From: a virus
Direction: 5' to 3' (one strand)
Virus record (IMG/VR): IMGVR_UViG_3300032309_002729
Location: 1-37,838 of that record
Length of the DNA stretch: 37,838 nucleotides
Made by a program: the position numbers and the translations under genes. Positions 17,094 through 29,919 of the stretch are shown here, in pieces (position 1 is the first letter of the stretch; every line of letters starts with the position of its first letter). The notes under the pieces were generated by a model. It worked only from the letters and a program-made list of their open reading frames with translations. It ran no database searches and had not been told where the DNA came from.

Positions 17094-17110
17094 TGAAGCA
17101 GGGAGCTTCA
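17094..17110 (+). promoter_or_regulatory. 5'-terminal mRNA hairpin, loop AGGGA
   Basis: TGAAGC-AGGGA-GCTTCA forms a perfect 6-bp stem beginning one or two bases after the predicted transcription start. It is one of a family of such leader hairpins. Confidence 0.65.
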
Positions 17111-17126
17111 GAAAGAAGGGAACAAA

Positions 17127-17537
17127 ATGGCAAACTACTACGGACAAACCCGCACCAATTACTTTTTAGTAAAAGACGCGGAAGCTTTCAAAACTGAAAT
17201 GGCGAACTACGAAGTTACGGTCATTGAGCAAAAAATTGGCGAGGAAACTGGCTACGGAATCTTGGACGCGGATAGTGATGGCGGCGGTCTTCAATGGAGT
17301 CAATTCAATGAAGAAACCGACGAGTATGACGATCTTGCGTGGGAAGTCATTATTGGAAACCACCTCAAAGACGGAGAGGTGTGTGTCCTAATGGAAACTG
17401 GCGCGGAGAAGTATCGCTACCTAAGCGGTTGGGCTATCGCGTTTAACAATAAGGGCGAAACTCGCAGAGTAGACATCACAGACATCTACAACCTAGCCAA
17501 AGAGTTAGGCACGGGTATAACCCAAGCAGAGTATTAG
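17127..17537 (+). CDS. Conserved hypothetical protein, 136 aa
   Basis: The opening MANYYGQTRTNYFLVKDAEA and the Gly-rich GYGILDADSDGGGLQWS resemble a small family found on actinobacterial plasmids and phages, though I cannot name it. An acidic middle (NEETDEYDDLAWEVIIGNHL) is followed by a strand-rich C-terminus. AAGGGAAC precedes the ATG. It forms a single-gene unit. Function unknown. Confidence 0.6.
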   Translation: MANYYGQTRTNYFLVKDAEAFKTEMANYEVTVIEQKIGEETGYGILDADSDGGGLQWSQFNEETDEYDDLAWEVIIGNHLKDGEVCVLMETGAEKYRYLSGWAIAFNNKGETRRVDITDIYNLAKELGTGITQAEY

Positions 17538-17545
17538 ACACGGTG

Positions 17546-17578
17546 AGAGGGGTGAGTTTGACAACTTGCCCCTCTTTC
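17546..17578 (+). terminator. Terminator whose loop contains the next -35 box
   Basis: AGAGGGG (17546-17552) pairs with CCCCTCT (17569-17575), with an inner AGTT/AACT stem; TTTCG follows. The tetraloop TGAC lies within TTGACA at 17558-17563. Confidence 0.7.
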
Positions 17579-17587
17579 GTTTATACT
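17558..17587 (+). promoter_or_regulatory. Promoter of the DUF2958 gene, nested in the terminator
   Basis: TTGACA (17558-17563), 18 bases, TATACT (17582-17587). The spacer is the 3' arm of the preceding terminator. Confidence 0.65.
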
Positions 17588-17624
17588 TTCATCATAACGG
17601 AAAGCGCACAGAAGGGAAAAGAAA

Positions 17625-17927
17625 ATGCGCGGACATAAATTATTAACGAAGGAACTGGCGGCAAAGTTGCCAGAGCTTTATTCGCAAGATGGCAAGGGCG
17701 AGGAAGCGGTTGCGGTTGTAAAGTTCTTCAGCCCCTATACCGGTTGGAGATGGTACGCCACAGAGTTTGACGGCGTAGACACTTTCTTCGGTTTGGTTGA
17801 AGGGTTTGAAACAGAACTTGGATACTTTAGCCTACAAGAACTAGAAAGCGTTACGGTCTTTGGCGGAGTACCCGCTATCGAACGCGACCTACATTGGACA
17901 CCACGCACGTTAGGAGAACTGCGGTGA
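17625..17927 (+). CDS. DUF2958 family protein
   Basis: A 100-residue protein that fits DUF2958 over its whole length: [57 protein letters not shown] and a C-terminal [13 protein letters not shown]. This family occurs mainly on plasmids and other mobile elements and has no known function. GAAGGGAA precedes the ATG. The gene is coupled to the following one by a four-base GTGA overlap. Confidence 0.9.
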
Positions 17928-18202
17928 ACGTAACCACGATTGAAGAATGGGACGAGTTCTACAAGCCAGAAAAAAATTGGCTAGATGAGGAAGCGAGCTG
18001 GGGTGGGGTACTTTACGAAACCTACGGTGAAGAAGTCAAGTATGTTTTTTCACAGCCTAAGAACCACATCTGGACTTATGTAGACGGAGATAGCGGAACT
18101 TACCTTACAACTGGGTTTAAGGTTTGTAACCGGATTGGTCACATAGTCACGGACGTACCGTGGACAGAAGAAATGGAAATACGGGTTTCTGAAGATGCTT
18201 GA
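17924..18202 (+). CDS. Hypothetical acidic protein, 92 aa
   Basis: It starts at a GTG overlapping the DUF2958 stop (GTGA), with AGGAGAA upstream. The sequence [20 protein letters not shown] and [20 protein letters not shown] is rich in Trp, Tyr and acidic residues. No family recognised. Its tight coupling suggests it works with the DUF2958 protein. Confidence 0.6.
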
Positions 18203-18228
18203 CAAATGTCAGGCGTATGACTTATAAT
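18199..18228 (+). promoter_or_regulatory. Promoter with palindromic -35 operator
   Basis: TTGACA (18199-18204), 18 bases, TATAAT (18223-18228). TGACA-aa-TGTCA spans 18200-18211. A GAGC-GTAAA-GCTC hairpin (18236-18248) starts at the predicted transcript end. Confidence 0.75.
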
Positions 18229-18268
18229 CATCATAGAGCGTAAAGCTCAACTAACAAGGGAGAACCAA

Positions 18269-18397
18269 ATGTGTAATCACGAAATGATAGATTGCCCAGA
18301 ACATGAGGGCGGTTACGACTGCACACCGTTTTGCAAGGTGTGTGAGGGTGAACAGGGCTACTGCCCTATCTGCGAACCAATAGAGGGAGAAAACTAA
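18269..18397 (+). CDS. Cys-rich microprotein, 42 aa
   Basis: MCNHEMIDCPEHEGGYDCTP is followed by FCKVCEGEQGYCPICEPIEG. Eight cysteines and two histidines in 42 residues, including CKVC and CPIC, make it a likely zinc-binding module. AAGGGAGAA precedes the ATG. The next gene begins one base after its stop. Confidence 0.7.
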   Translation: MCNHEMIDCPEHEGGYDCTPFCKVCEGEQGYCPICEPIEGEN

Positions 18398-18398
18398 A

Positions 18399-18872
18399 AT
18401 GGGACTAGATCAGTACCTATACGCAAGCGAATACCTATCCGACGGATCTTGGCTGCCAGAGGAAAAAAGAAATGCTTACGGAAAAATCCGGGAAGCACTT
18501 GGCGCGGAGAGCTTTGAAAACAAAGAGTATCCGTCAATTACGGTCAAGGTTAAAGTTGGCTACTGGCGCAAGGCGAACCAAATCCATAACTGGTTTGTAG
18601 ACAATGTGCAAAACGGCGAAGACAACTGCGCGGAGTATTCTGTAACTAGCGAACAGTTAGAGGAATTGTTAAGTATCTGCAAAATAATAATTGCAAGCAA
18701 AGATAAAGATACAGCGGAGAGTTTGCTACCACCGTCAGCAGGTTTCTTTTTCGGGTCGTATGAAATTGACGATTGGTACTGGGAACAGATTGACGACACC
18801 ATTGAGCAACTTGAGCGCGTACTAGCCAATGTTCCAGAGGGCTGGGGTTTCTCTTACCAAAGCTCGTGGTAA
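18399..18872 (+). CDS. Conserved phage protein of the MGLDxYLY type, 157 aa
   Basis: MGLDQYLYASEYLS, YWRKANQIHNWFVDNVQNGE and LLPPSAGFFFGSYEIDDWYW match a widespread phage protein family (MGLDMYL...WRKAN.IH.WFV...GFFFG) found in phages of many hosts. The conserved His/Trp/Asn core suggests a real, perhaps enzymatic, role, but none is established to my knowledge. GGGAGAA lies upstream. It is the second gene of a two-gene unit. Confidence 0.75.
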   Translation: MGLDQYLYASEYLSDGSWLPEEKRNAYGKIREALGAESFENKEYPSITVKVKVGYWRKANQIHNWFVDNVQNGEDNCAEYSVTSEQLEELLSICKIIIASKDKDTAESLLPPSAGFFFGSYEIDDWYWEQIDDTIEQLERVLANVPEGWGFSYQSSW

Positions 18873-18896
18873 GTGGCGTTGAGGGACGCATAGAAG

Positions 18897-18926
18897 AAGG
18901 GCGGGGAAACCCGCCTTTCTTTATTT
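18897..18926 (+). terminator. Rho-independent terminator, first of a near-duplicate pair
   Basis: The GGCGGG/CCCGCC core with flanking A-T pairs is followed by TTTCTTTATTT. The sequence before and through the stem (GAGGGACGCA...GGGCGGGGAAAC) is nearly repeated at 19384-19424. Confidence 0.8.
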
Positions 18927-18968
18927 CTGGGCAGCGGTAGAATGGAAAAAAATTTCTAGGAGTTTGCG

Positions 18969-19121
18969 TTGAAAAAGAAAAAGCCGCTTGATGGTTTGAT
19001 CCAAGCTCGCGGTAATTATGTCTTGAACCAAAAATCTTTTAAGTTTTTAGACAGACGAACCCGGCGGAACAGGGATAGATCAAGTCATAAAAGACACGCC
19101 ATAAATGAGTCTTCGGAATAA
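18969..19121 (+). CDS. Small basic protein, 50 aa, TTG start
   Basis: A TAGGAG seven bases before a TTG codon opens a frame reading KKKKPLDGLIQARGNYVLNQ, then FKFLDRRTRRNRDRSSHKRH. The arginine-rich DRRTRRxRxR pattern is reminiscent of small basic actinophage proteins. The rare start and short length leave doubt, but the ribosome site and strong composition bias favour a gene. No promoter of its own is evident. Confidence 0.45.
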   Translation: MKKKKPLDGLIQARGNYVLNQKSFKFLDRRTRRNRDRSSHKRHAINESSE

Positions 19122-19122
19122 C

Positions 19123-19150
19123 TTGACAAAAGAAATAAAATCATTATAGA
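19123..19150 (+). promoter_or_regulatory. Promoter of the 68-aa gene
   Basis: TTGACA, 16 A-rich bases, TATAGA. A TTCC-ATAA-GGAA hairpin (19155-19166) starts at the predicted transcript end and includes part of the ribosome site. Confidence 0.65.
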
Positions 19151-19177
19151 ATCATTCCATAAGGAAGGGAGTATTCA

Positions 19178-19384
19178 ATGTATGAATACAGAATGACAGT
19201 AATCTTCACGACAAGCCGTGAACTTACTGAACAAGAAATCTCGGATCTAGAAGTACCGGTCTGGGCGCAAATCGAAGAGCCACAGGTAGATACTGATGAT
19301 CGCGGTTGGGTGGATGCGGACTACGAAACTAGTTCCATCAGGGTCAATACTGAAATGACTTTCTGCCCAGCACCAACAGCGTAG
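19178..19384 (+). CDS. Hypothetical acidic protein, 68 aa
   Basis: MYEYRMTVIFTTSRELTEQE begins with a beta strand; the centre (DTDDRGWVDADYETSSIRVN) is acidic. GAAGGGAG precedes the ATG. It is a single-gene unit with its own promoter and terminator. No family recognised. Confidence 0.55.
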   Translation: MYEYRMTVIFTTSRELTEQEISDLEVPVWAQIEEPQVDTDDRGWVDADYETSSIRVNTEMTFCPAPTA

Positions 19385-19396
19385 GGACGCACGGAG

Positions 19397-19424
19397 AAGG
19401 GGCGGGGAAACTCGCCCCTTTTCT
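19397..19424 (+). terminator. Rho-independent terminator, second of the near-duplicate pair
   Basis: AAGGGGCG (19397-19404) pairs with CGCCCCTT (19413-19420); TTCTAATTT follows and the last TT begins the next -35 box. Confidence 0.8.
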
Positions 19425-19427
19425 AAT

Positions 19428-19456
19428 TTGACAAGTATCATAGAGTCATCTAAACT
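19428..19456 (+). promoter_or_regulatory. Promoter of the 19485-20365 unit
   Basis: TTGACA, spacer AGTATCATAGAGTCATC (17 bases), TAAACT. The spacer carries the ATCATAGAG word shared with other promoters of this group. Confidence 0.7.
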
Positions 19457-19484
19457 TAGAGAACAACGAAGGGAGTGAATCCAA

Positions 19485-19697
19485 ATGGGATACACAAAAA
19501 TTGAAATACCAGCAGACACTTACTGCGAAAGTTGCGATGAAGCTGAAGCAACTACCTACCACGATCACGATGGTTGGATACCACCAACTTTCTACTGCCA
19601 AGACTGCCAAGACAGAATCGAAGCCTCATACGAAGGTCCTTCGGCTATGGATGTTTACGAACCGGTAGTTATGAACGAACACGGTAGGGTTTTCTAA
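19485..19697 (+). CDS. Zinc-ribbon-like protein, 70 aa
   Basis: CESC (residues 14-17) and CQDC (38-41) are separated by YHDHDGWIPPTFY, a plausible single zinc ribbon with conserved His/Asp between the knuckles. The acidic C-terminus is unrecognised. AAGGGAG precedes the ATG, and the stop overlaps the next start (TAATG). Confidence 0.65.
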   Translation: MGYTKIEIPADTYCESCDEAEATTYHDHDGWIPPTFYCQDCQDRIEASYEGPSAMDVYEPVVMNEHGRVF

Positions 19698-19831
19698 TGA
19701 GGGACTCACTAGATAAAGTCACCGACTTTTTTATGGAAGGCGCGGGGTCAATTATTTTAGTTGCCCTTATTCTTGGAGCTCCAATAGCATTCATACTTTT
19801 TCTTAACATCTACTGGATTATGAACGGATAG
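19697..19831 (+). CDS. Small single-pass membrane protein, 44 aa
   Basis: A short polar N-terminus (MRDSLDKVTDFFMEGAG) precedes a strong hydrophobic span (SIILVALILGAPIAFILFLN). Its ATG overlaps the stop of the zinc-ribbon gene, and the next gene begins two bases after its stop. Function unknown. Confidence 0.6.
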   Translation: MRDSLDKVTDFFMEGAGSIILVALILGAPIAFILFLNIYWIMNG

Positions 19832-19833
19832 TT

Positions 19834-20127
19834 ATGATTAACGCGGATGAGTTACAGCCCGGCGTCTGGGTTGAGTTGGAAAAAAATAATTCAGTTGCTT
19901 TCGGAGTCGCGGTTGTTGAGCTAGCGATGAAGTATGGTTACGACATTCTTCCAGATGTCTGGGCGGAAGATAAGCCCGTCTTTTTATCCGGCGCGGCGAC
20001 AAATGAGATGCTTGAAGACTTAAGTGTTGTCGCGGACTTTGGTATCCAGTATCTAGCTGATCAACTGCCTGAAGGCTATGAGTTTAGTTTTACAGATGAG
20101 GGGTTGGTTTTAGATGAAAGACATTGA
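19834..20127 (+). CDS. Hypothetical acidic protein, 97 aa
   Basis: MINADELQPGVWVELEKNNS opens the protein; the middle contains VVELAMKYGYDILPDVWAED, and the C-terminal part YLADQLPEGYEFSFTDEGLV ends acidic. A GAAAAAAAT word encodes the EKNN. No family recognised. It overlaps the next gene by 14 bases. Confidence 0.55.
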   Translation: MINADELQPGVWVELEKNNSVAFGVAVVELAMKYGYDILPDVWAEDKPVFLSGAATNEMLEDLSVVADFGIQYLADQLPEGYEFSFTDEGLVLDERH

Positions 20128-20365
20128 GTTTAGATTAACCACCACCGACAATAACAACTGGGCGTTAGAAGTTTATGATCCTAACGTGCAACACTTAGTT
20201 GGCGCGGCAAGTAAAAAGTTTTCCGGACTCGGAGAAGCTGAAGTTTGGCTAGAGTCGTTTGGTACTTTAGAAAAGTCTAGGTTTATAGATCGTGAAGACT
20301 TTAAGGTGATACGCGGTACAGCCCAAATGGGGAGTTTCTCTTTAGAAAGTTTACTGTCAGATTAA
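20114..20365 (+). CDS. Hypothetical protein, 83 aa
   Basis: MKDIEFRLTTTDNNNWALEV is strand-rich, followed by GLGEAEVWLESFGTLEKSRF. The start lies inside the preceding gene and is preceded by its codons for GLVLDE; no strong ribosome site, so coupling is likely. No family recognised. Confidence 0.5.
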   Translation: MKDIEFRLTTTDNNNWALEVYDPNVQHLVGAASKKFSGLGEAEVWLESFGTLEKSRFIDREDFKVIRGTAQMGSFSLESLLSD

Positions 20366-20366
20366 C

Positions 20367-20395
20367 TTGACATCCTTAAATAGTAGTGTTACCAT
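20367..20395 (+). promoter_or_regulatory. Promoter, AGTGT-type
   Basis: TTGACA (20367-20372), 17 bases ending TAGTAGTGT, TACCAT (20390-20395). First of the promoters that share AGTGT just before the -10 box. Confidence 0.65.
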
Positions 20396-20428
20396 TACTA
20401 CATAGGGAGAGAAAAGGGAGGTGACAAG

Positions 20429-20596
20429 ATGGAAACAAAAGACTACGGACACGGAATTACCACTCAAATTACTGAGGATGGAATGCTTGCTATCGTCTGG
20501 AACAACGGCAAGACTAAGAAGTTCAGAGGCGAAACTGCTTGGATGGATGCGGAACGCTACGCTCAAGATCTAGTTTTCAAAGTTATCTACGCATAA
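20429..20596 (+). CDS. Hypothetical protein, 55 aa
   Basis: METKDYGHGITTQITEDGML and AIVWNNGKTKKFRGETAWMD suggest a compact strand-rich fold with a C-terminal helix. GGGAGGTG lies seven bases before the ATG, a very strong ribosome site. A single-gene unit. No family recognised. Confidence 0.6.
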   Translation: METKDYGHGITTQITEDGMLAIVWNNGKTKKFRGETAWMDAERYAQDLVFKVIYA

Positions 20597-20607
20597 CTTG
20601 AAAAGAC

Positions 20608-20640
20608 AAGCCCCCCGTTTACGCGGGGGGTTTTTGTTTT
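20608..20640 (+). terminator. Strong Rho-independent terminator
   Basis: CCCCCCG (20611-20617) pairs with CGGGGGG (20624-20630), followed by TTTTTGTTTT. The spacer beyond (20641-20800) has no gene; it holds GAAAAAAAT words on both strands and repeated GCGCGG/AGCTGG/CCGG words. Confidence 0.85.
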
Positions 20641-20808
20641 GCCGGAACGCGGGCAGCGCGGAAAAAAATAATAAGCTGGATGGGTCCGTCTTCAGGAATT
20701 TTTCCAGCTCAAAATTTTTTTCCACCTGAGCCGCGCAGCGCCGGGAAGCTTGCTGCACGCTTTCCGGAAAAATTAAATTAAATTTTCTGAGCTAGTTTAG
20801 GTTTAGAC

Positions 20809-20837
20809 TTGACATACAAAAAGTAGTGTGCAATAAT
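20809..20837 (+). promoter_or_regulatory. Promoter of a short non-coding unit
   Basis: TTGACA (20809-20814), 17 bases ending TAGTGTGC, AATAAT (20832-20837). TAGTGTGCAATAATCATT recurs exactly in the promoter 108 bases downstream. Confidence 0.65.
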
Positions 20838-20843
20838 CATTAA

Positions 20844-20907
20844 AGCGGATTAGTCACCGTGTGAATCGCAAAGCCCCCGTGTTTACCCTCCACGGGGGTT
20901 TTGTTTT
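20844..20907 (+). ncRNA. Predicted small RNA of about 64 bases
   Basis: The promoter at 20809-20837 and the terminator CCCCCGTG/CACGGGGG (20874-20898, then TTTTGTTTT) enclose no ATG, GTG or TTG ORF of note. The 5' part GCGGATT...GAATCGC can form an additional bulged hairpin. A stand-alone promoter-terminator pair in a region where every other pair encloses a gene suggests a small RNA, or a unit that has lost its gene. Confidence 0.5.
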
Positions 20908-20916
20908 GTCATAAAC

Positions 20917-20945
20917 TTGACACGCGGAAAATAGTGTGCAATAAT
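20917..20945 (+). promoter_or_regulatory. Promoter, AGTGTG-type
   Basis: TTGACA (20917-20922), 17 bases ending TAGTGTGC, AATAAT (20940-20945). Confidence 0.65.
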
Positions 20946-20953
20946 CATTCATG

Positions 20954-20976
20954 TAAGTAAGAAGGGCTTACTTACA
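20954..20976 (+). promoter_or_regulatory. 5'-terminal mRNA hairpin, loop AAGGG
   Basis: GTAAGTAAG-AAGGG-CTTACTTAC is a perfect 9-bp stem starting at the predicted transcript 5' end, upstream of the real ribosome site AGAAGGGAA. Confidence 0.7.
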
Positions 20977-20992
20977 GAAGGGAAATAACACC

Positions 20993-21328
20993 GTGGGTAA
21001 TCGCTCATTTATTGTTATTGAAAGTAAGAACTATGTATCGCCTATCGCTCTTTATGGGCATTGGTCAGGTACAGACAATGTTCGCGCCGTAGAAAATGTA
21101 TTAGCCCGAACAGATAGAGTAGGCGACCCGTCATACCTGACAGCGCAACTCTTTCACGAATTCTCCACACTAGGTGGTTATGATGGAAACTTATCTTTCG
21201 GCATTGATGCCTATGGCTACGATGCAGGTAGTTGGGAAGATAACGACCCAATTTACATTGATGCGGATACAGGTAAAACATCTGGCGAACCATTTCGTAT
21301 TTGCAAGGTTGCCAATTCCTACGCATAA
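20993..21328 (+). CDS. Conserved hypothetical protein, 111 aa
   Basis: GTG start with AGAAGGGAAA upstream. MGNRSFIVIESKNYVSPIAL, YGHWSGTDNVRAVENVLART and RVGDPSYLTAQLFHEFSTLG are highly patterned and resemble an actinophage/prophage family I have seen without an assigned function. The C-terminal DNDPIYIDADTGK is a typical strand-turn. Single-gene unit with a leader hairpin. Confidence 0.65.
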   Translation: MGNRSFIVIESKNYVSPIALYGHWSGTDNVRAVENVLARTDRVGDPSYLTAQLFHEFSTLGGYDGNLSFGIDAYGYDAGSWEDNDPIYIDADTGKTSGEPFRICKVANSYA

Positions 21329-21340
21329 CTAATTAAAGAT

Positions 21341-21374
21341 AAAGCCCCTGCAACACGCAGGGGTTTTATTTTGC
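21341..21374 (+). terminator. Rho-independent terminator
   Basis: CCCCTGC (21345-21351) pairs with GCAGGGG (21357-21363), followed by TTTTATTTT. Confidence 0.85.
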
Positions 21375-21382
21375 CCTAAGAC

Positions 21383-21411
21383 TTGACATACTTTAGTTAG
21401 TGTGGGACAAT
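21383..21411 (+). promoter_or_regulatory. Promoter, AGTGTG-type
   Basis: TTGACA (21383-21388), 17 bases ending TTAGTGTGG, GACAAT (21406-21411). AGTGTGGGACAATTTA recurs in the promoter at 22762. Confidence 0.65.
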
Positions 21412-21440
21412 TTAGGTATCACATAGGGAGAGGTGAGAAA

Positions 21441-21542
21441 ATGAACACAGCAACTAAATGCGTAGAATGCAACAGAGTGTTTGACTTAATGAACACAGAC
21501 GATGCAAGCGAATGGTACTACGGTCACGATTGCGAAGCCTAG
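21441..21542 (+). CDS. Cys-containing microprotein, 33 aa
   Basis: MNTATKCVECNRVFDLMNTD then DASEWYYGHDCEA. CVEC and HDC could bind one zinc ion. GGGAGAGGTGAG precedes the ATG; own promoter and terminator support expression. Confidence 0.6.
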   Translation: MNTATKCVECNRVFDLMNTDDASEWYYGHDCEA

Positions 21543-21555
21543 TCTTCAACAAGAT

Positions 21556-21584
21556 GCCCCCGCCTAGCGCGGGGGTTTTCTTTT
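21556..21584 (+). terminator. Rho-independent terminator
   Basis: CCCCCGC (21557-21563) pairs with GCGGGGG (21569-21575), followed by TTTTCTTTT. The 130-base spacer after it holds a GAAAAAAAT word and no gene. Confidence 0.85.
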
Positions 21585-21715
21585 GCGTGGGAACAGCTCG
21601 TGAAGACAGCTCGCCAGCTTGCGGAAAAAAATTCTGTGCTGCTTTTCCAGGCCGAAATTTTCCAGATCCGCGGCTGGTCTTCCGGAAAATTTAATTGCTA
21701 AAAGTTCCCGATGAC

Positions 21716-21744
21716 TTGACATGAGGCAAGTTATGTGGTTAAAT
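21716..21744 (+). promoter_or_regulatory. Promoter of the 95-aa gene
   Basis: TTGACA (21716-21721), 17 bases ending TATGTGG, TTAAAT (21739-21744). Confidence 0.65.
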
Positions 21745-21749
21745 AGTTT

Positions 21750-21767
21750 TATCGCTAAGGGGCGATA
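21750..21767 (+). promoter_or_regulatory. 5'-terminal mRNA hairpin, loop TAAGGG
   Basis: TATCGC-TAAGGG-GCGATA, 6 bp, at the predicted transcript start. The same loop TAAGGG recurs at 22799-22814 and 28138-28153 with different stems. Confidence 0.7.
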
Positions 21768-21786
21768 ATCACAAAGGAGAAATACC

Positions 21787-22074
21787 GTGAACGAGTATCT
21801 AAAAGAATACTTGGCAGATCCAAGTGAGGATTGGTTTTTAATCAACTCTCGCGATGAAGAAGAGATCGATTTGCGCGAAGATGTCAAGGCTGAGTACAGC
21901 GAGCCTTGGGGTATGTGGCTAGTTAGTTACGTCGATGAAGATGGCGACGATGGTTCGGTTCTACTGCGCGACGCTAAGTCCGCGGAAGAGGCGCTACTAA
22001 TTGGCGCGAGCCTAGTTAAGGAACACGGATTCATCCCAGATGAAATGTTCTACCCAGCCGGGGAGGAGATGTAA
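21787..22074 (+). CDS. Hypothetical highly acidic protein, 95 aa
   Basis: GTG start with AAAGGAG upstream. MNEYLKEYLADPSEDWFLIN is followed by many Asp and Glu residues (SRDEEEIDLREDVKAEYSEP, YVDEDGDDGSVLLRDAKSAE). Strong negative charge suggests a possible DNA-mimic or a protein-binding role, but this is speculation. The next gene starts immediately after its stop. Confidence 0.55.
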   Translation: MNEYLKEYLADPSEDWFLINSRDEEEIDLREDVKAEYSEPWGMWLVSYVDEDGDDGSVLLRDAKSAEEALLIGASLVKEHGFIPDEMFYPAGEEM

Positions 22075-22215: not shown

Positions 22216-22225
22216 ATCTTTAAGA

Positions 22226-22261
22226 GAAAGCCCCCGCAGAAATGTGGGGGTTTTCTTTTTG
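22226..22261 (+). terminator. Strong Rho-independent terminator
   Basis: GAAAGCCCCCGCA pairs with TGTGGGGGTTTTC through a GAAA loop, followed by TTTTT. The spacer to 22400 carries GAAAAAAAT at 22325 and GCTGCTGCAGC-like words. Confidence 0.85.
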
Positions 22262-22437: not shown

Positions 22438-22466
22438 TTGACAATGTCAGGGGTGTAGTTTATTAT
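22438..22466 (+). promoter_or_regulatory. Promoter with palindromic -35 operator
   Basis: TTGACA (22438-22443), 17 bases, TATTAT (22461-22466). TGACAATGTCA occupies 22439-22449, identical to the one at 11216. Confidence 0.75.
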
Positions 22467-22473: not shown

Positions 22474-22492
22474 TCAAGTCAAAGGGGCTTGA
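22474..22492 (+). promoter_or_regulatory. 5'-terminal mRNA hairpin, loop AAAGG
   Basis: TCAAGTC-AAAGG-GGCTTGA, 7 bp with one G-U pair, at the predicted transcript start. Confidence 0.65.
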
Positions 22493-22514: not shown

Positions 22515-22718
22515 GTGAGGTATAAGCCTCTTAACGATTTAACAATTAAAGTGGTCATGTTTCTATGGTCAATTAAAGTTCCAGTAGGTCACTTTGTAAT
22601 CTGCGATACCTGCGACGCGGATGACATTGTCTTAACAAAAGAGAATGCTCGTAAGTTCCACGCCTTGCACGGTGGAATGCACCGCCACCCAAGTCGGAGA
22701 TTCAACTTAGTCGCCTAA
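22515..22718 (+). CDS. Hypothetical protein, 67 aa
   Basis: GTG start with GAAGGAG upstream. A hydrophobic stretch (LTIKVVMFLWSIKVPVGHFV) is followed by ICDTCDADDIVLTKENARKF and a His-rich HALHGGMHRHPSRR. The CxxC plus histidines could bind metal. No family recognised. Confidence 0.55.
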   Translation: MRYKPLNDLTIKVVMFLWSIKVPVGHFVICDTCDADDIVLTKENARKFHALHGGMHRHPSRRFNLVA

Positions 22719-22761: not shown

Positions 22762-22790
22762 TTGACAAATAATAAAAAGTGTGGGACAAT
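22762..22790 (+). promoter_or_regulatory. Promoter, AGTGTG-type
   Basis: TTGACA (22762-22767), 17 bases ending AAGTGTGG, GACAAT (22785-22790). Confidence 0.7.
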
Positions 22791-22798: not shown

Positions 22799-22814
22799 GG
22801 AGTTAAGGGACTCC
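22799..22814 (+). promoter_or_regulatory. 5'-terminal mRNA hairpin, loop TAAGGG
   Basis: GGAGT-TAAGGG-ACTCC, 5 bp, starting about two bases after the predicted transcription start. Confidence 0.65.
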
Positions 22815-22830: not shown

Positions 22831-23037
22831 GTGGAAACAAAGCAAATCTGGTGGGATGGTAATCACACCACTTGTATCGAACACATGGGCTTCACGCTTA
22901 AGTCTGAAATTGAGGCACACCCACGAAAGCGCACACACATCACTTGCTTCGGTGAGGCTTACCTAATGGATGAGTCTGAAGTAAAAGCGATCCAAGAAAT
23001 TATGGAAAGCGAAACAATTTGTGAGGGGTGCGAATGA
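22831..23037 (+). CDS. Hypothetical protein with C-terminal CxxC, 68 aa
   Basis: GTG start with AAAGGAG upstream. METKQIWWDGNHTTCIEHMG and RKRTHITCFGEAYLMDESEV contain scattered Cys/His, ending ICEGCE. A zinc site is possible. It overlaps the next gene by four bases (ATGA). Confidence 0.6.
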   Translation: METKQIWWDGNHTTCIEHMGFTLKSEIEAHPRKRTHITCFGEAYLMDESEVKAIQEIMESETICEGCE

Positions 23038-23553: not shown

Positions 23554-24138
23554 GTGTCACGTATCGAAGGAAAGAAAAAAATAGCTGTAGGGCAGCGAAC
23601 TATCAAGCAGCAACATCAACAGCTTCCGGCTTCAGCCTTAGCAACTATCGAGGAACTGAAAGCAAGAAACAGCAGTCCGGATAGAGATGAATACATCAAG
23701 ATGTTGCGAGAAGCTGGGTGGACGTTGCAAAGCATTGCTAGTGCGCATGGTATGACTCGTGAGCGCGTGCGACAGATTGCGGCAGAGCCTCGCATGTACT
23801 TTGAAGATGTCAAGTCTTTGGAAGTACCAGTAGCTCCGAACCGAACTGTCGATGTCTTTGAGTCTGTCGAAGTCGAACTAGATCCTGCGGTAGCAGCAAG
23901 GCTTATCGAACTCTCTCCACTGGCTCGTCAGTACTGGAAAAATAATGACGAGGCACTTGAGTTTGTTGCTTTGTTACATCAAGAGATTGAGCGTGGAGTT
24001 AGTGGCATTCGCCTAGGTAAATTGCTGGGTATTAACCACTCGTCAATTTATGCTCGCTTAGCGAGATACGGTTATCGCCAAACTAAATCAACATCAAAGC
24101 ACATGCAACTAAATAAAAGATTAGTTGCGGCTAAGTAA
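23554..24138 (+). CDS. HTH protein with a sigma-region-4-like motif
   Basis: A 194-residue protein, GTG start with AGAAGGGA upstream. Residues 50-77 (LREAGWTLQSIASAHGMTRE, then RVRQIAAE) match the helix-turn-helix of sigma factor region 4 (GxTLxEIAxxxGVTRERVRQI). A second HTH-like segment near the C-terminus reads GIRLGKLLGINHSSIYARLA. The region between is unrecognised and there is no sigma region 2. It could be a phage transcription regulator of the repeated small-gene promoters, an inference from its location among them. Confidence 0.75.
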   Translation: MSRIEGKKKIAVGQRTIKQQHQQLPASALATIEELKARNSSPDRDEYIKMLREAGWTLQSIASAHGMTRERVRQIAAEPRMYFEDVKSLEVPVAPNRTVDVFESVEVELDPAVAARLIELSPLARQYWKNNDEALEFVALLHQEIERGVSGIRLGKLLGINHSSIYARLARYGYRQTKSTSKHMQLNKRLVAAK

Positions 24139-24949: not shown

Positions 24950-24952
24950 AAG

Positions 24953-25519: not shown

Positions 25520-25534
25520 GGTCAGGGAAAAGAT

Positions 25535-25566
25535 AAACCCCCCACACCATGCGGTGCAGGGGGTTC
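25535..25566. terminator. Bidirectional terminator between convergent genes
   Basis: AACCCCC...CACC-ATGC-GGTG...GGGGGTT. It separates the Ntn-hydrolase gene from the leftward gene at 25579-25809. Confidence 0.75.
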
Positions 25567-25578
25567 GTGTCTTTAGGG

Positions 25579-25809
25579 TTAGGCGATACCTGATTCGCAG
25601 ACTACGCAAGTCCAGTCTTCAGGAATTTCATCGCTACCGAAAATCGGTGCTGGTTCATTCTCACGAGTGTCAATTGAACTCTCGCCAGTAATGACTGGGT
25701 TCGTGTAGTACACGCACTCTGCGCAGTACACGTTACCTTCATAGGTAAACCCAAGTACGTGCCACGCCTTGGATGCGTATGTGTTTGGTGCTAGTGGAGT
25801 CATGTCCAC
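25579..25809 (-). CDS. Zinc-ribbon-like protein, 76 aa
   Basis: GTG start at 25809 with AAAGGGG upstream. CAEC (residues 29-32) and CVVC (68-71) are separated by an acidic linker; YASKAWHVLGFTYEGNVYCA precedes the first knuckle. One of the few leftward genes in the 10-30 kb region, with its own promoter and leader hairpin. Confidence 0.65.
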   Translation of the reverse strand: MDMTPLAPNTYASKAWHVLGFTYEGNVYCAECVYYTNPVITGESSIDTRENEPAPIFGSDEIPEDWTCVVCESGIA

Positions 25810-25826
25810 GGTAGTCCCCTTTCATT

Positions 25827-25843
25827 AGTTGCTCCCTGCAACT
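25827..25843 (-). promoter_or_regulatory. 5'-terminal mRNA hairpin, loop AGGGA (leftward transcript)
   Basis: On the - strand AGTTGC-AGGGA-GCAACT, a perfect 6-bp stem starting at the predicted transcript end. The loop is identical to that at 17100-17104. Confidence 0.65.
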
Positions 25844-25853
25844 TGATAACTCG

Positions 25854-25882
25854 ATGTTAGCACAATAACCTGACATAGGCAA
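25854..25882 (-). promoter_or_regulatory. Leftward promoter of the zinc-ribbon gene
   Basis: On the - strand TTGCCT, 17 bases (starting ATGTCAGG and ending TTGTGC), TAACAT. Confidence 0.5.
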
Positions 25883-25894
25883 ATTCATTTACAG

Positions 25895-25923
25895 TTGACA
25901 AAGTTTTAATTTTAGTTTACTAT
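25895..25923 (+). promoter_or_regulatory. Rightward promoter, divergent from the previous one
   Basis: TTGACA (25895-25900), 17 AT-rich bases, TACTAT (25918-25923). Confidence 0.7.
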
Positions 25924-25963
25924 CGTTATAGACACACAAACAAAGGGAAGGGAGGTCGCCGCC

Positions 25964-26146
25964 GTGAAGTACATCTTTACAGAAACTAAGACATACGAAA
26001 TTGATTCGGATGCAGTCAAAGTAAGTAACCCGCATGAAGCGCAAGTTATGTTTAATCTTGGCTGGGCAGTTGAGTTGGATCGCTCGTGGAAGCTTTCAGA
26101 AATAAAAGCAAGTGAGTCTGAAGCACACCTACTTGGCTGGAGATAG
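25964..26146 (+). CDS. Hypothetical protein, 60 aa
   Basis: GTG start with a strong GGGAGGT upstream. MKYIFTETKTYEIDSDAVKV looks strand-rich, followed by NPHEAQVMFNLGWAVELDRS. No family recognised. Single-gene unit. Confidence 0.55.
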   Translation: MKYIFTETKTYEIDSDAVKVSNPHEAQVMFNLGWAVELDRSWKLSEIKASESEAHLLGWR

Positions 26147-26156
26147 CCAATAAAAG

Positions 26157-26191
26157 TTAGCCCCCCGTGTTGAGCGGGGGGTTTTCTTTTT
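26157..26191 (+). terminator. Strong Rho-independent terminator
   Basis: GCCCCCCG-TGTTGAG-CGGGGGG followed by TTTTCTTTTT; the GGAAAAAAATAATAAGCTGC word lies 28 bases further on. Confidence 0.85.
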
Positions 26192-26287
26192 GGCTGGTTA
26201 GCTTGCGGCTAGCGGCTGGAAAAAAATAATAAGCTGCTTTCGGCGCGGCGCATTGCTTTACCCGGACGCGGCTGATAGGCTGCTCTC

Positions 26288-27028
26288 ATGGGAACTTACG
26301 TATCTTTATTTGCCGGAGTAGGCGGCTTTGATCTTGGTCTTGAAGCTGGTGGACACGAATGTGTTGGTCAGGTTGAGATTGACAAGAAGTGCCTTGCGGT
26401 ATTGGAAAAGCATTGGCCTAATGTGCCAAAGCATCATGATGTAGTTACAGCAAAGGAATGGGCTAATGAGCAAAACCTCGTCGGAAAAGTTGACATTGTC
26501 TGCGGAGGATTTCCGTGTCAAGACGTTAGCGTTGCAGGAAAAAGGGCTGGACTGGCTGGTGCCAGAACTGGACTCTTCTTCGATGCACTCTCTTTCGCAA
26601 CGCACGTCCAAGCAAAAACTATCATCCTGGAGAATGTCCCAGGACTTTTATCAAGCAACAACGGACGCGATTTCGGAGTCGTCCTCACTAGTTTGGCCGA
26701 CGCAGGGTATAGCGACATCGAATGGCGTGTGCTTGATTCGCAATTCTTCGGAGTCCCCCAACGTCGCCGTCGAGTCTTCGTTATCGCAAGTGCTGGAGGC
26801 GGAAGTTTCTCCGAAGTACTCACTGAGCGGAAAAGCAGCCGAGGGGATCATCCGGCGGGCGGAGCGTCGCGGGAAAACATTGCCGGAACCACTGAGAAGA
26901 GCACTGATGTCAGTGGTGGAGAAGCCCGAATAGGTAGCTTTGAACTTTATACTTTCCCGAATGAAGACCGTTCGCCAGCTCTTTCCGCCCGGAGAGCTAG
27001 TGACATGCTGCAGTACCCAGCTGAGTAG
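26288..27028 (+). CDS. DNA C5-cytosine methyltransferase, catalytic N-terminal part
   Basis: Residues 5-170 carry motif I FAGVGGFDLGLE, motif IV GGFPCQDVSVAG (catalytic C77), motif VI ENV (115-117) and motif VIII QRRRRVFVI (158-166). It would methylate cytosine C5, typically to evade host restriction. After VIII the protein enters the target-recognition region (residues 171-246) and stops at TAG (27026-27028). The same frame reopens at ATG 27038, 10 bases later, with the missing motifs IX/X, so this is a split gene: a nonsense mutation, a two-subunit enzyme or read-through. No strong ribosome site precedes the ATG. Confidence 0.9.
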   Translation: MGTYVSLFAGVGGFDLGLEAGGHECVGQVEIDKKCLAVLEKHWPNVPKHHDVVTAKEWANEQNLVGKVDIVCGGFPCQDVSVAGKRAGLAGARTGLFFDALSFATHVQAKTIILENVPGLLSSNNGRDFGVVLTSLADAGYSDIEWRVLDSQFFGVPQRRRRVFVIASAGGGSFSEVLTERKSSRGDHPAGGASRENIAGTTEKSTDVSGGEARIGSFELYTFPNEDRSPALSARRASDMLQYPAE

Positions 27029-27037
27029 AAAAAAATA

Positions 27038-27721
27038 ATGAGCTGGTATGTGAAGACGAAGCGTGCGCAGAGCAGCACCGATGACGAGAAGTGGGTTGAA
27101 GGTGCGGTCCATCCAACTCTCAACGCATTCGATGTAGGAGATACCAGAGCTGTCGTACTAGTTATTGAGGATGTTGAAGAGATGGTTCATTGTCTAGGCG
27201 GACACCACCCAAACGCATCTATCACTGAGGATGTCTGTTGCACGCTTACAAGTGCGATGGGACTTGGTGGAGGGCACATTCCGTTAGTAGCACTTAGTGA
27301 GGAAGAAATGCAGACCTACCCAATTCAAGGAACTGTAATCGGTCGCAAGGATACGGCAGGTCCTCAGGGCAAAGGTTACGGGGACTCAACAGATCCAATG
27401 TTTACACTTGATACAACAGGAGGTCACGCGGTGGCTGTAACAGATGACGAGACAATAGTATTTCATCCTCATAGAACTGATGGCTTCCGCATTCAAGGGG
27501 AAACAGTTAATACGCTTACAGCCTTCATGGGCACAGGAGGATTGAATACACCAATGGTTTCTACTTCAGCAGTGAGGCGCATTACTCCGATGGAGTGCGA
27601 ACGCCTTCAAGGATTCCCTGATAACTGGACTGATGGACAGGCTGACTCACATAGATATAAGCAGATGGGTAATGCAGTAACAGTCAATGTAATCGCTTGG
27701 ATTGGATCGCGGCTTGACTAA
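27038..27721 (+). CDS. C5-cytosine methyltransferase C-terminal part (target recognition and motifs IX/X)
   Basis: The frame matches that of the upstream half. Residues 1-40 (YVKTKRAQSSTDDEKWVEGA) continue the family's variable region. Residues 180-226 hold RRITPMECERLQGFPDNWTD (motif IX) and RYKQMGNAVTVNVIAWIG (motif X). Between are repeated modules each containing a TL core and a Gly-rich turn: HPTLNAFDVGDTRAVV, CTLTSAMGLGGGHIPLV, MFTLDTTGGHAVAV and NTLTAFMGTGGLNTPMV. Without the upstream half it has no catalytic cysteine. Its ATG follows a GAAAAAAAT word and lacks a ribosome site. Confidence 0.85.
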   Translation: MSWYVKTKRAQSSTDDEKWVEGAVHPTLNAFDVGDTRAVVLVIEDVEEMVHCLGGHHPNASITEDVCCTLTSAMGLGGGHIPLVALSEEEMQTYPIQGTVIGRKDTAGPQGKGYGDSTDPMFTLDTTGGHAVAVTDDETIVFHPHRTDGFRIQGETVNTLTAFMGTGGLNTPMVSTSAVRRITPMECERLQGFPDNWTDGQADSHRYKQMGNAVTVNVIAWIGSRLD

Positions 27722-28082
27722 TGATTTTTTTCCTGAATATGAACTTGGACCCACAGCTTATTCATTTGATTCGGTAGCTTCCAATTCAATGAAATCCAGT
27801 AACCCTAATAGTGGTTGCAGGAAAGTAGATCTATGTAAAACATTGGATACTGCTGCATTAAATCCTTCAGCTAATCAAGGAGGTATCGCCGTGGTTTATG
27901 AAGTTAATCCTGCGGTGATTAAAGAAAGCCGTGTCAGAAGATTAACGCCTCGTGAATGTGAGCGTCTTCAGGGATTCCCAGACGACTGGACTGATTGCGG
28001 TTTTAATTCATCTCGCTACAAGCAAATGGGCAATGCTGTCACAGTTAATGTAATCGCTTGGATAGGGTCAAGACTGCCCTAA
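27702..28082 (+). pseudogene. Second copy of the methyltransferase C-terminal module, no good start codon
   Basis: The frame opens only with TTG (27702 or 27714) inside the previous gene, in +1 relative to it. Residues from about 10 read EYELGPTAYSFDSVASNSMK, SSNPNSGCRKVDLCKTLDTA and NPSANQGGIAVV, a typical variable-region piece of phage C5 methyltransferases. It ends in RRLTPRECERLQGFPDDWTD and RYKQMGNAVTVNVIAWIG; by eye about 39 of the last 47 residues equal the first copy. It lacks motifs I-VIII. It may be a silent exchange cassette, a frameshift remnant, or expressed by frameshifting. Confidence 0.75.
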
Positions 28083-28102
28083 CACGCCCGAAAACAAAGG
28101 GT

Positions 28103-28131
28103 TTGACATTGCCTTGCATTGGTGATACCTT
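28103..28131 (+). promoter_or_regulatory. Promoter of the 51-aa gene
   Basis: TTGACA (28103-28108), 17 bases, TACCTT (28126-28131). Confidence 0.7.
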
Positions 28132-28137
28132 AGAACT

Positions 28138-28153
28138 GTCGCTAAGGGGCGAC
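28138..28153 (+). promoter_or_regulatory. 5'-terminal mRNA hairpin, loop TAAGGG
   Basis: GTCGC-TAAGGG-GCGAC, a perfect 5-bp stem exactly at the predicted transcription start. Confidence 0.7.
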
Positions 28154-28173
28154 CTTCCCTAAAGGAGAAAGAC

Positions 28174-28329
28174 ATGATTACACGTCGCGGAATTATCGTT
28201 CGCAACATTGCAATAGTCGTTGCGGTATTGGCATTCTGGGCTGTGGCTGACAAAGTCACTACCCCAGATCGTTGTCAAGTACCAGCCGAGCAACTATCGC
28301 AGTCTTGTACTGACTTGCTCTACCCTTAG
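28174..28329 (+). CDS. Small membrane-anchored or secreted protein, 51 aa
   Basis: AAAGGAG precedes the ATG. MITRRGIIVRNIAIVVAVLA then FWAVADK is a signal-anchor; the outer part DRCQVPAEQLSQSCTDLLYP has two cysteines that could form a disulfide. A surface or exclusion role is possible but not shown. Confidence 0.6.
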   Translation: MITRRGIIVRNIAIVVAVLAFWAVADKVTTPDRCQVPAEQLSQSCTDLLYP

Positions 28330-28335
28330 TAAAAG

Positions 28336-28389
28336 AATTCCCTGCCCCTAGATAATTTTGGAAATTTAGGGTCAGGGAACTTTTATTTC
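28336..28389 (+). terminator. Rho-independent terminator
   Basis: TTCCCTG (28338-28344) pairs with CAGGGAA (28373-28379) around an inner CCCTA/TAGGG stem, followed by TTTTATTT. Confidence 0.75.
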
Positions 28390-28414
28390 TATCTACAAAA
28401 ACACTGGAGGAATA

Positions 28415-28564
28415 GTGAATAAACTGAACATTGTTTGGTCAGCAGTAGCCTCAGCTACCCTTGCTGTCGTTGGAATCCTATTGGGAATCCTAGGCGATGG
28501 AGAGGGCGCAGTTGCCACGGGGCTGGCTTCAATTGCTCTGGCAATACTCTCAACAAAGGAATAA
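28415..28564 (+). CDS. Small two-span membrane protein, 49 aa
   Basis: GTG start with TGGAGG four bases upstream. MNKLNIVWSAVASATLAVVG and ILLGILGDGEGAVATGLASI then ALAILSTKE form two hydrophobic segments linked by a short GDGEG turn. The size and hairpin topology are holin-like, but no family match is claimed. It lies after a terminator, so it needs read-through or an unseen promoter. Confidence 0.6.
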   Translation: MNKLNIVWSAVASATLAVVGILLGILGDGEGAVATGLASIALAILSTKE

Positions 28565-28570
28565 GGCGGT

Positions 28571-28599
28571 TTGACGGAAGCTCCGTTGAATCGTAGAGT
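28571..28599 (+). promoter_or_regulatory. Promoter of the 120-aa gene
   Basis: TTGACG (28571-28576), 17 bases, TAGAGT (28594-28599). Confidence 0.5.
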
Positions 28600-28634
28600 T
28601 AATACAAAGACATAATGACGTAAGGAGAAATACT

Positions 28635-28997
28635 ATGTGGCTATTTACTGAGACAGGCTTTGTTAGTGCAGTCTGCAGCCCTGAAGACAAAGATATCATG
28701 AAGGTCCGTGCGCGGGACAAGAAGTCTCTGCTAGAACTTTCCGAGCTCGCGGGCGTAGACATCCTTGAGTGGGACAACTGTGATTACCCGTACAGGGTCA
28801 TCATCCCTAAGAGTGTGTTGTCTTCCTGGATGCTGGACATGATCGATAGGGCTGACTATGGGAACTTTAAGTCCCAAGTCCAGCGTACTCGTGGTTATGA
28901 GTACACCAAGCCTCTACATGAAGTTTGGGCATCAATGCATGATGTAACTGATACGGCTGAAGCAAAGAAGCGTTCACTCTACTACTACGCATCCTGA
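28635..28997 (+). CDS. Conserved phage/plasmid protein of the MWLFTxxGF type, 120 aa
   Basis: MWLFTETGFVSAVCSPEDKD, MKVRARDKKSLLELSELAG and DYPYRVIIPKSVLSSWMLDM followed by YGNFK and LHEVWASMHD match a conserved protein seen on phages and plasmids (MWLFTxxGFxSVVxxP...VRARxxxxL...DYxYRIxVxKxxW...IDYxNFK). No function is established to my knowledge. AAGGAGA precedes the ATG. Confidence 0.75.
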   Translation: MWLFTETGFVSAVCSPEDKDIMKVRARDKKSLLELSELAGVDILEWDNCDYPYRVIIPKSVLSSWMLDMIDRADYGNFKSQVQRTRGYEYTKPLHEVWASMHDVTDTAEAKKRSLYYYAS

Positions 28998-29036
28998 GGT
29001 AGAATTGGGTCACCCCAGTACCTAGGAAGGGCAGTA

Positions 29037-29318
29037 ATGTCTGAAGAATTGAATGCGGTTGAAGAAGTTGTAGAAGCCGAAGTCATCGTCGAAGATGCTA
29101 CTCCGGCTGAAGAAGAAATTGCAGCAGTTGTGCCGGAGAAGAAGGCAGCTTCTCGCGGAAAAAAATTTCAAGCTGAACCGGAAGATGCGGCTGAAGAGCC
29201 AGCTCAGCCGGAAGAAGTTGTTGAAGTTGTAGCACCAGCACCAGTTGTTGCACCAACTGCGGTAACACAAGCTACCTCACGCGGAGGAATTTCACTTTCA
29301 ATTCGCAACCGGAAATAA
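29037..29318 (+). CDS. Low-complexity acidic protein, 93 aa
   Basis: Dominated by Glu, Ala, Val and Pro (EELNAVEEVVEAEVIVEDAT; AQPEEVVEVVAPAPVVAPTA), with a central basic SRGKKFQ and a final GGISLSIRNRK. It looks intrinsically disordered and may be a scaffold- or linker-type protein. AGGAAGGG precedes the ATG. Function unknown. Confidence 0.55.
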   Translation: MSEELNAVEEVVEAEVIVEDATPAEEEIAAVVPEKKAASRGKKFQAEPEDAAEEPAQPEEVVEVVAPAPVVAPTAVTQATSRGGISLSIRNRK

Positions 29319-29332
29319 TAACTCTACGAATT

Positions 29333-29380
29333 AACACCCAGTCACTGCGATAAACTTGCGGTGCTGGGTGTTATTTTTTA
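29333..29380 (+). terminator. Strong Rho-independent terminator
   Basis: AACACCCAG (29333-29341) pairs perfectly with CTGGGTGTT (29364-29372), followed by ATTTTTT. Confidence 0.85.
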
Positions 29381-29412
29381 GCACCGGTGTGATCAATGGA
29401 AGGACGACACCC

Positions 29413-29676
29413 ATGACAGCAATTAATAAACTGCGACAGGTTAGCCTACGCATCATTGCGGTATTCGCTGCTTCAGGACTTTCAGTAATTGGCGCGGGTG
29501 CGCTTGCTGGAGTTGAACTATGGCAAGCGGTGTTTATGGCAGGTGTAAGCGGTGTAGCTACGGTAGTCGAAGGACTATCCCGTGCCTACCTCAAAGACGG
29601 AAACTTATCAATGGAAGAAATTGATGAAGTCTTCGTTGCGGTAGACAAGAAGAATGCTAAAGCCACAGGCAAGTAA
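29413..29676 (+). CDS. Two-span membrane protein, holin-like, 87 aa
   Basis: GGAAGGACG upstream selects the ATG at 29413; the longer frame from 29356 crosses the terminator. RIIAVFAASGLSVIGAGALA and WQAVFMAGVSGVATVVEGLS are two membrane spans, followed by RAYLKDGNLSMEEIDEVFVA, a charged EF-hand-like tail. Similar proteins in actinophages are annotated as membrane or holin-type. With the r1t-type holin at 8359 this would be a second candidate lysis membrane protein (inference). Confidence 0.65.
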   Translation: MTAINKLRQVSLRIIAVFAASGLSVIGAGALAGVELWQAVFMAGVSGVATVVEGLSRAYLKDGNLSMEEIDEVFVAVDKKNAKATGK

Positions 29677-29688
29677 CCACGCAAACAA

Positions 29689-29728
29689 GTACGCCCCTTA
29701 CCTTGCGGTAGGGGGCGTATTTTGTTTG
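29689..29728. terminator. Strong, probably bidirectional terminator
   Basis: GTACGCCCC...TTACC-TTGC-GGTAG...GGGGCGTAT followed by TTTGTTT. It lies between the rightward membrane-protein gene and the leftward 48-aa gene. Confidence 0.8.
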
Positions 29729-29735
29729 TCTGCGG

Positions 29736-29882
29736 TTAGACTAACTCGAAAGAGTCAATCTTTGGGTGGACTTCATACTGTCCCGCTAGAATCTCTAGCG
29801 CCTTTGTGTATGAGTGGCATTCGTATACATACTTAGTGCCGTCAATGATTACCACTAGTGAGTTCATTGTTTCTAGTACCAT
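29736..29882 (-). CDS. Hypothetical protein, 48 aa
   Basis: AAGGGAG lies six bases before the ATG. MVLETMNSLVVIIDGTKYVY and ECHSYTKALEILAGQYEVHP suggest a beta-beta-alpha unit. It has its own promoter and leader hairpin on the - strand, good evidence that it is a gene. No family recognised. Confidence 0.6.
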   Translation of the reverse strand: MVLETMNSLVVIIDGTKYVYECHSYTKALEILAGQYEVHPKIDSFELV

Positions 29883-29901
29883 TTGGATCTCCCTTGTTCT
29901 T

Positions 29902-29919
29902 TACCGCTTCCTTGCGGTA
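29902..29919 (-). promoter_or_regulatory. 5'-terminal mRNA hairpin, loop AAGGAA (leftward transcript)
   Basis: On the - strand TACCGC-AAGGAA-GCGGTA, a perfect 6-bp stem at the predicted transcript start. Confidence 0.65.

Follow-up and report, generated by a model that had tools for sequence, protein, structure and literature searches.

Why should eight small genes, lying on both strands of a phage genome known only as DNA, each be preceded by a short hairpin whose loop resembles a ribosome-binding sequence? The question arises from a 37.8-kb virus fragment of IMG/VR with a GC content of 45%, referred to here as the window, by which the whole stretch of analysed DNA is meant. The portal protein of the window has hundreds of relatives among viral contigs. 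Among isolates it is best matched by Actinomycetia phage DSL-LC01 (71%) and by Microbacterium phage Pumpernickel (61%), followed by other Microbacterium, Arthrobacter and Gordonia phages, and the content and order of genes in DSL-LC01 are comparable to those of the window (ribonucleotide reductase, small early genes, portal). Judged on these relatives and on gene order, the window virus is an actinobacteriophage.

The tie of the hairpin to the promoter, its single orientation relative to the gene, an excess of G-U over A-C mismatches and the maintenance of pairing while stem sequences change together show that it is a selected RNA structure, as an initial annotation of the window had proposed for a predicted transcript start. 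Sites picked by the text AAGGG alone hold 176 Watson-Crick pairs, a number that falls to 105 +/- 9 if the right arms are exchanged among sites; for AGGGA sites the corresponding figures are 87 and 45 +/- 6. The interior mismatches comprise 25 G-U and 4 A-C, with a nominal p of 5e-5 that is optimistic because some of the sites are related. The asymmetric loop is always found on the mRNA strand, its orientation fixed with respect to the gene, and pairing rather than stem sequence is conserved, as in stabilisers of the ompA type.

Layout of the eight leaders

All eight hairpins of the initial annotation are present, two of them running longer than described (20952-20976 and 21749-21768). Each site has the same layout of promoter, hairpin, separate Shine-Dalgarno (SD) sequence and start codon; seven of the promoters have TTGACA and one is weaker (25843, minus strand). 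The stems had been placed exactly at transcript 5' ends. At all eight sites they do begin 4-10 nucleotides (nt) past the -10 box, where +1 would be expected, the 5' end itself being a prediction from that box. Unrelated stems with alike loops had also been described: the loops are similar without being identical, and the stems at 21749 and 28138 share CGC/GCG. The features are as follows, with lengths of encoded proteins in amino acids (aa).

17058-17086, plus: promoter TTGACA-17-TATAAT, with 12 of 12 consensus bases, serving the 17094 hairpin
17094-17110, plus: 5' hairpin TGAAGC(AGGGA)GCTTCA, 6 bp, 7 nt past the -10 box and followed by the SD gaaggga
17127-17537, plus: 136-aa gene with no assigned function, whose orthologues have hairpins of other stems
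20917-20945, plus: promoter TTGACA-17-AATAAT
20952-20976, plus: 5' hairpin TGTAAGTAAG(AAGGG)CTTACTTACA, 10 bp, z-score -3.6
20993-21328, plus: 111-aa gene downstream of the 20952 hairpin
21716-21744, plus: promoter TTGACA-17-TTAAAT
21749-21768, plus: 5' hairpin TTATCGCT(AAGG)GGCGATAA, seven Watson-Crick pairs and a U-G, the loop being AAGG or TAAGGG
21787-22074, plus: 95-aa gene downstream of the 21749 hairpin
22438-22466, plus: promoter TTGACA-17-TATTAT
22474-22492, plus: 5' hairpin TCAAGTC(AAAGG)GGCTTGA, 7 bp including one U-G, which is U-A in relatives
22515-22718, plus: 67-aa gene downstream of the 22474 hairpin
22762-22790, plus: promoter TTGACA-17-GACAAT
22799-22814, plus: 5' hairpin GGAGTT(AAGG)GACTCC, five Watson-Crick pairs and a U-G, the loop being AAGG or TAAGGG
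22831-23037, plus: 68-aa gene downstream of the 22799 hairpin
28103-28131, plus: promoter TTGACA-17-TACCTT
28138-28153, plus: 5' hairpin GTCGCT(AAGG)GGCGAC, five Watson-Crick pairs and a U-G, the loop being AAGG or TAAGGG; the best-sampled orthologous site
28174-28329, plus: 51-aa gene with one hydrophobic segment and relatives in at least 80 contigs
25854-25882, minus: weak promoter TTGCCT-17-TAACAT, read by eye
25827-25843, minus: 5' hairpin AGTTGC(AGGGA)GCAACT, 6 bp, with the gene 25579-25809 downstream
29927-29955, minus: promoter TTGACA-17-TTAGAT, read by eye
29902-29919, minus: 5' hairpin TACCGC(AAGGAA)GCGGTA, 6 bp, with a 48-aa gene (29736-29882) downstream

All eight hairpins are found in both the minimum-free-energy and the centroid folds of their leaders, and their z-scores against whole-leader shuffles are modest (-0.7 to -3.6). 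Across 221 promoters of the lineage, 46 of the 49 stems of at least 6 bp with an AGGG or AAGG loop start 0-19 nt past the -10 box, almost all of them at 4-12 nt, and none starts upstream of that box. The standard deviation of the stem start relative to the promoter is 2.4 nt; the stem ends on average 17.9 nt before the start codon, with a standard deviation of 3.3. AAGGG with pairing arms is found mostly at 22-32 nt upstream of the start codon, and AAGGG without such arms mostly at 7-12 nt. The loop centre is about 27 nt from the start codon, with the SD proper separate and downstream of the hairpin.

Some hairpins in the related contigs G025 (L092) and G045 (L171) stop only 3-4 nt before the ATG, as in [TATCGC(AAGGG)GCGATA]agaaATG; there the loop may serve as the SD, or the ATG may be mis-called. 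The spacer between the -35 and -10 boxes often holds (A)TGTCAGG(AAGG), for example TTGACAAATGTCAGGAAGGT, both in the leaders L193-L272 and in the window (18199-18228 and 22438-22466), and this motif is possibly a regulator site.

Recurrence and turnover among related phages

Scans for the element were anchored on the promoter in place of a covariance model, since a 17-nt hairpin with free stem sequence is too information-poor for such a model. In the window, hairpins with an AGGG or AAGG loop were counted in 7 of 25 promoter leaders against 0.17 expected from dinucleotide shuffles (maximum 2 in 100), one of the seven being false, namely the start codon's own SD near 30290 on the minus strand. 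Two true minus-strand hairpins fall outside the 25 leaders because their promoters are weaker or lower-scoring. Set against mononucleotide shuffles, hairpins occur in 7 of 25 leaders of the window (1.6 expected), 25 of 43 in G025 (2.3), 23 of 35 in G045 (2.2), 8 of 15 in G006 (0.7) and 13 of 28 in G046 (3.4). Among contigs reached through orthologues of two downstream genes, the hairpin is present in 9 of 21 leaders of G446 (1.9 expected), 10 of 25 of G456 (3.1), 8 of 21 of G465 (1.2) and 11 of 34 of G458 (2.4), while G464 is almost without hairpins (1 of 37) and the enrichment in G452 is not significant. These figures show presence rather than frequency across the family, since the last six contigs were picked after a pattern count and G025, G006, G005, G013 and G002, which came from the portal search, were taken whole partly on such a count; G045 and G046 were chosen for an exact TATCGCAAGGGGCGATA and are therefore ascertained for the element.

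Among isolates the element is absent from DSL-LC01, Pumpernickel, Cece and GMA2, of which DSL-LC01 alone was read whole. In Arthrobacter phage Mimi there are two single copies (AAGGG and AGGGA), and the overall enrichment in Mimi and Atuin is weak (13 hairpins against 7.6 expected, with a shuffle maximum of 13). Derivation from the host was rejected, as the pattern TTGACA-N22..36-GCAAGGGGC was matched four times in 395 Actinomycetia genomes against about 30 matches for the reversed control, in a scan that used one loop and stem type and covered the class as a whole rather than an identified host.

The site ahead of the 51-aa gene was compared across a non-redundant set of 50 leaders. Where a promoter can be recognised, most leaders have a hairpin at the corresponding position, and those that lack it include some mis-called starts and distant relatives. 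The stems found there are GTCGCT/GGCGAC, TTATCGC/GCGGTAA, GTTGA/TCAAC, TTGGCT/AGCCAA, GTGGCT/AGTCAC, TATTGACT/AGTCAATA and TATTGGC/GTCAATA, and the loops AAGG, AACAAC, ATGGT, AAGGG, AGGAA, AAATT and AGGGA. In nine alignable rows, selected for having the hairpin, 100% of the cells are paired, no slid register exceeds 44%, and both sides have changed in two of the five pairs; this alignment supports kept pairing without being conclusive alone. Orthologues of the 136-aa gene have four different stems, including TGAAGC(AGGGA), GCGAGTAAG(AAGGG) and TATCGGTG(AAGGA), and a comparison of GTTAGTA(AGGGA)TACTAAC in G013 with GTTGGCG(AGGGA)CGCTAAC in G045 reveals two double changes. A lack of compensatory stem changes in relatives had been named in advance as grounds for abandoning the idea of a selected structure; at orthologous genes such changes are seen. 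The position of the hairpin, its pairing, the constraint at the RNA level and the turnover of both stem and loop are direct observations.

The commonest loops among 122 hairpins of the lineage are AAGGG (35), AGGGA (17), AAGG (8) and AAAGG (8). Other loops occupy the same place elsewhere: AAATT in phages resembling G034, AATTT or GAATT in G465, GAAA, GAGA or AAAA in G458, and AACCG in some hairpins of the weakly enriched Mimi and Atuin. Since position is kept while loops differ, the 5'-terminal stem is the common trait and the SD-like loop a preference of the lineage. The initial annotation, by contrast, had taken a ribosome-binding-like loop as the essence of the element; the preference for such loops is borne out in the lineage, but the hairpin persists with non-SD loops at orthologous genes and in sister lineages.

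In the early-region leaders of Mimi (L149) and Atuin (L187) the AACCG hairpins read GGGAAC(AACCG)GTTCCC and GGCTC(AACCG)GAGCC. The early regions of these phages also have long inverted repeats across the TTGACA box, which are possible operators.

Proposed protection of the mRNA 5' end and its alternatives

We lean towards reading the hairpins as 5'-terminal stem-loops of short phage mRNAs that shield the 5' end. A kept stem with a lineage-specific loop makes it probable that they form a genome-wide set of 5' mRNA-stabilising stem-loops of the type known from ompA, aprE and the Mycobacterium smegmatis gyrase mRNA. The host sigma70-type RNA polymerase would start near the stem, placing the first paired base at or near +1, and little single-stranded 5' end would be left for a pyrophosphohydrolase, for the 5'-exonuclease RNase J or for 5'-sensing RNase E. 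With the stem ending some 18 nt before the start codon, beside the initiating 30S subunit, the leader would be covered by stem and ribosome together. In the AAGGG lineage the SD-like loop (AAGGG or AGGGA) could additionally dock a 30S subunit, giving extra protection or a standby site. We infer the transcript start, the protection of the 5' end and 30S docking, as we do every step that leads from sequence to protection. More tentatively, it may be considered that in a family of actinobacteriophages a large share of the early mRNAs is marked by a promoter-encoded 5'-terminal hairpin acting as a structural cap. Its loop, which differs by lineage (AAGGG or AGGGA here), would be read by the ribosome or a dedicated factor, and viral transcripts would thereby last longer than those of the host or prevail over them in competition.

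Replacement of the loop with retention of the stem (AACAAC, ATGGT, AAATT, GAAA) is what would be seen if the function lay mainly in the stem. A number of observations weigh against 5'-end protection. About two-thirds of the promoter leaders in the window have no hairpin, and many such leaders occur in related genomes too; the 136-aa gene lacks it in two relatives, G013 and L165. The predominance of AAGGG and AGGGA in the lineage exceeds what pure stem protection needs, and the difference between the positional spreads relative to promoter and start codon is small (standard deviations of 2.4 and 3.3). Furthermore, the excess of G-U over A-C is weaker when loops are disregarded (89:46, against controls of 75:43, 63:51 and 56:50, the first of these being the upstream stretch where terminators of preceding genes lie), and as this excess is partly shared by the controls the loop-agnostic test adds little.

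The best-surviving alternative, which we nevertheless regard as doubtful, puts translation first: the anti-SD of the 30S subunit would bind the AAGGG or AGGGA loop as a standby site before engaging the real SD, boosting initiation on short-lived early mRNAs. Most loops in the AAGGG lineage do contain AGGG or AAGG, and they lie about 27 nt before the start codon, apart from the gene's own SD and invariably on the mRNA strand. However, at these genes relatives retain a hairpin whose loop can pair only poorly with the anti-SD (AACAAC, ATGGT, AAATT), sister lineages have AATTT, GAAA or AACCG loops, and the position follows the promoter slightly more closely than it follows the start codon.

Less probable again is a recognition tag, in which the loop is an address, particular to each lineage, for an RNA-binding protein of phage or host that co-controls the stability, translation or localisation of the mRNAs. 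Such a tag would account for the conservation of loops among the varied stems of a genome and for loop types that differ by lineage, and it would resemble phage RNA operators such as the hairpin loop of T4 gene 43 (PMC3014915). Against it, several loop types coexist in one genome (AAGGG, AGGGA, AGAGA, AACAAC and AAAGT in G025), orthologues swap loops (AGAGA and AAGGG), and no candidate RNA-binding protein was found, though no systematic search was made. Binding of the CsrA/RsmA type was rejected, AAGGG being without the GGA core and CsrA not being expected in Actinobacteria.

A role in transcription itself, with a hairpin in the first 20 or so nt aiding promoter escape or preventing early pausing and the loop being incidental, would fit the strict coupling to the promoter, yet it leaves the SD-like loop unexplained, and these genomes contain many comparable promoters without a hairpin, so that it seems improbable. 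That these perfect palindromes just past promoters are repressor operators in DNA rather than RNA structures is most improbable and largely refuted by the 25:4 ratio of G-U to A-C, the single orientation of an asymmetric loop relative to the gene, and stems that differ between sites without relation to one another.

Relation to known leader elements

The initial annotation knew of no described element of this form. For the phage series and its loop this stands, and no description of such a series was found in open-licence papers; for the principle it fails, since 5'-terminal stabilising stem-loops have already been described, in actinobacteria as well (PMC2358910, PMC3997798). Such stem-loops stabilise the ompA and papA mRNAs of E. 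coli and aprE of B. subtilis (cited in PMC3997798), and the gyrase mRNA of M. smegmatis owes its protection to a 5' stem-loop ahead of an SD (cited in PMC2358910). The phage hairpins share with this type a stem at or near the predicted 5' end, a short or absent unpaired leader and a downstream SD (PMC3997798, PMC2358910, PMC7509114); the known cases are single mRNAs, whereas here there is a phage-wide series, known from sequence, with a favoured SD-like loop.

A polypurine tract stabilises mycobacterial katG (PMC2358910). In the 5' polypurine stabiliser or STAB-SD (Hue 1995; Agaisse and Lereclus 1996), an SD-like tract can protect through ribosome binding (cited in PMC7509114 and PMC3997798). 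The phage leaders likewise have an SD-like purine tract near the predicted 5' end, apart from the SD used in translation. The known tracts are not described as hairpin loops, whereas here a loop presents the tract, beside a separate translation SD. These loops could combine protection by a stem with ribosome docking of the STAB-SD kind, although orthologues include loops unlikely to bind the anti-SD.

The closest phage series is that of the Start-Associated Sequences (SAS/ESAS) in mycobacteriophages of Cluster K. The SAS is a fixed sequence located at the ribosome-binding site, 3-7 bp from the start codon, and the authors who described the series saw no covariation in favour of ESAS hairpins and little support for such hairpins in mRNA (PMC3203893, PMC12699233). 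Both are multi-copy leader elements of actinobacteriophage non-structural genes, and the SAS, GGGATAGGAGCCC, holds AGGAG between outer GGG and CCC. In contrast to the SAS, the stems here vary and the element is anchored to the promoter, upstream of the ribosome-binding site. Membership of the Cluster K series was rejected, as the sites have no fixed 13-bp GGGATAGGAGCCC and the element ends about 18 nt before the start on average. The T7 gene 10 leader is another case of a phage mRNA that begins with a hairpin ahead of the ribosome-binding site, with a different polymerase and promoter and a fixed sequence. In Rfam no family reached its gathering score, the matches being weak and none overlapping the eight hairpins, and a known RNA family was rejected on this basis.

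Should the preferred reading of 5'-end protection hold, uncultivated actinobacterial phages would be employing 5' mRNA hairpins throughout their genomes, and each clade would supply dozens of natural variants. Those variants would offer a ready panel for separating what stem and loop each contribute in actinobacteria to the lifetime of mRNAs and the recruitment of ribosomes, and the hairpin would be a sequence cue by which to locate promoters, starts of transcripts and genuine start codons in poorly annotated phage genomes.

A few further features deserve mention. In DSL-LC01 (L083, OQ999401.1, about 24000-43500), a promoter-like block, TTCTAAAG..GTTATAATNGAATCAACAAC..ACGAAAGGACAA, recurs in near-identical form ahead of the start codons of around 25 early genes, which is a different and unstructured leader series. 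The window encodes at 23554-24138 (plus strand) a 194-aa protein with a helix-turn-helix resembling sigma-70 region 4 (Pfam Sigma70_r4), and the orthologous genes of G006, G025 and G045 carry at their start a conserved hairpin, AGTACC(AAAGT)GGTACT, that may be a site of autoregulation. Finally, runs resembling GGAAAAAAATAA(TAAGCTG) recur within and between genes of the window, at about 16706, 19879, 20660, 26218, 27027 and 29158.

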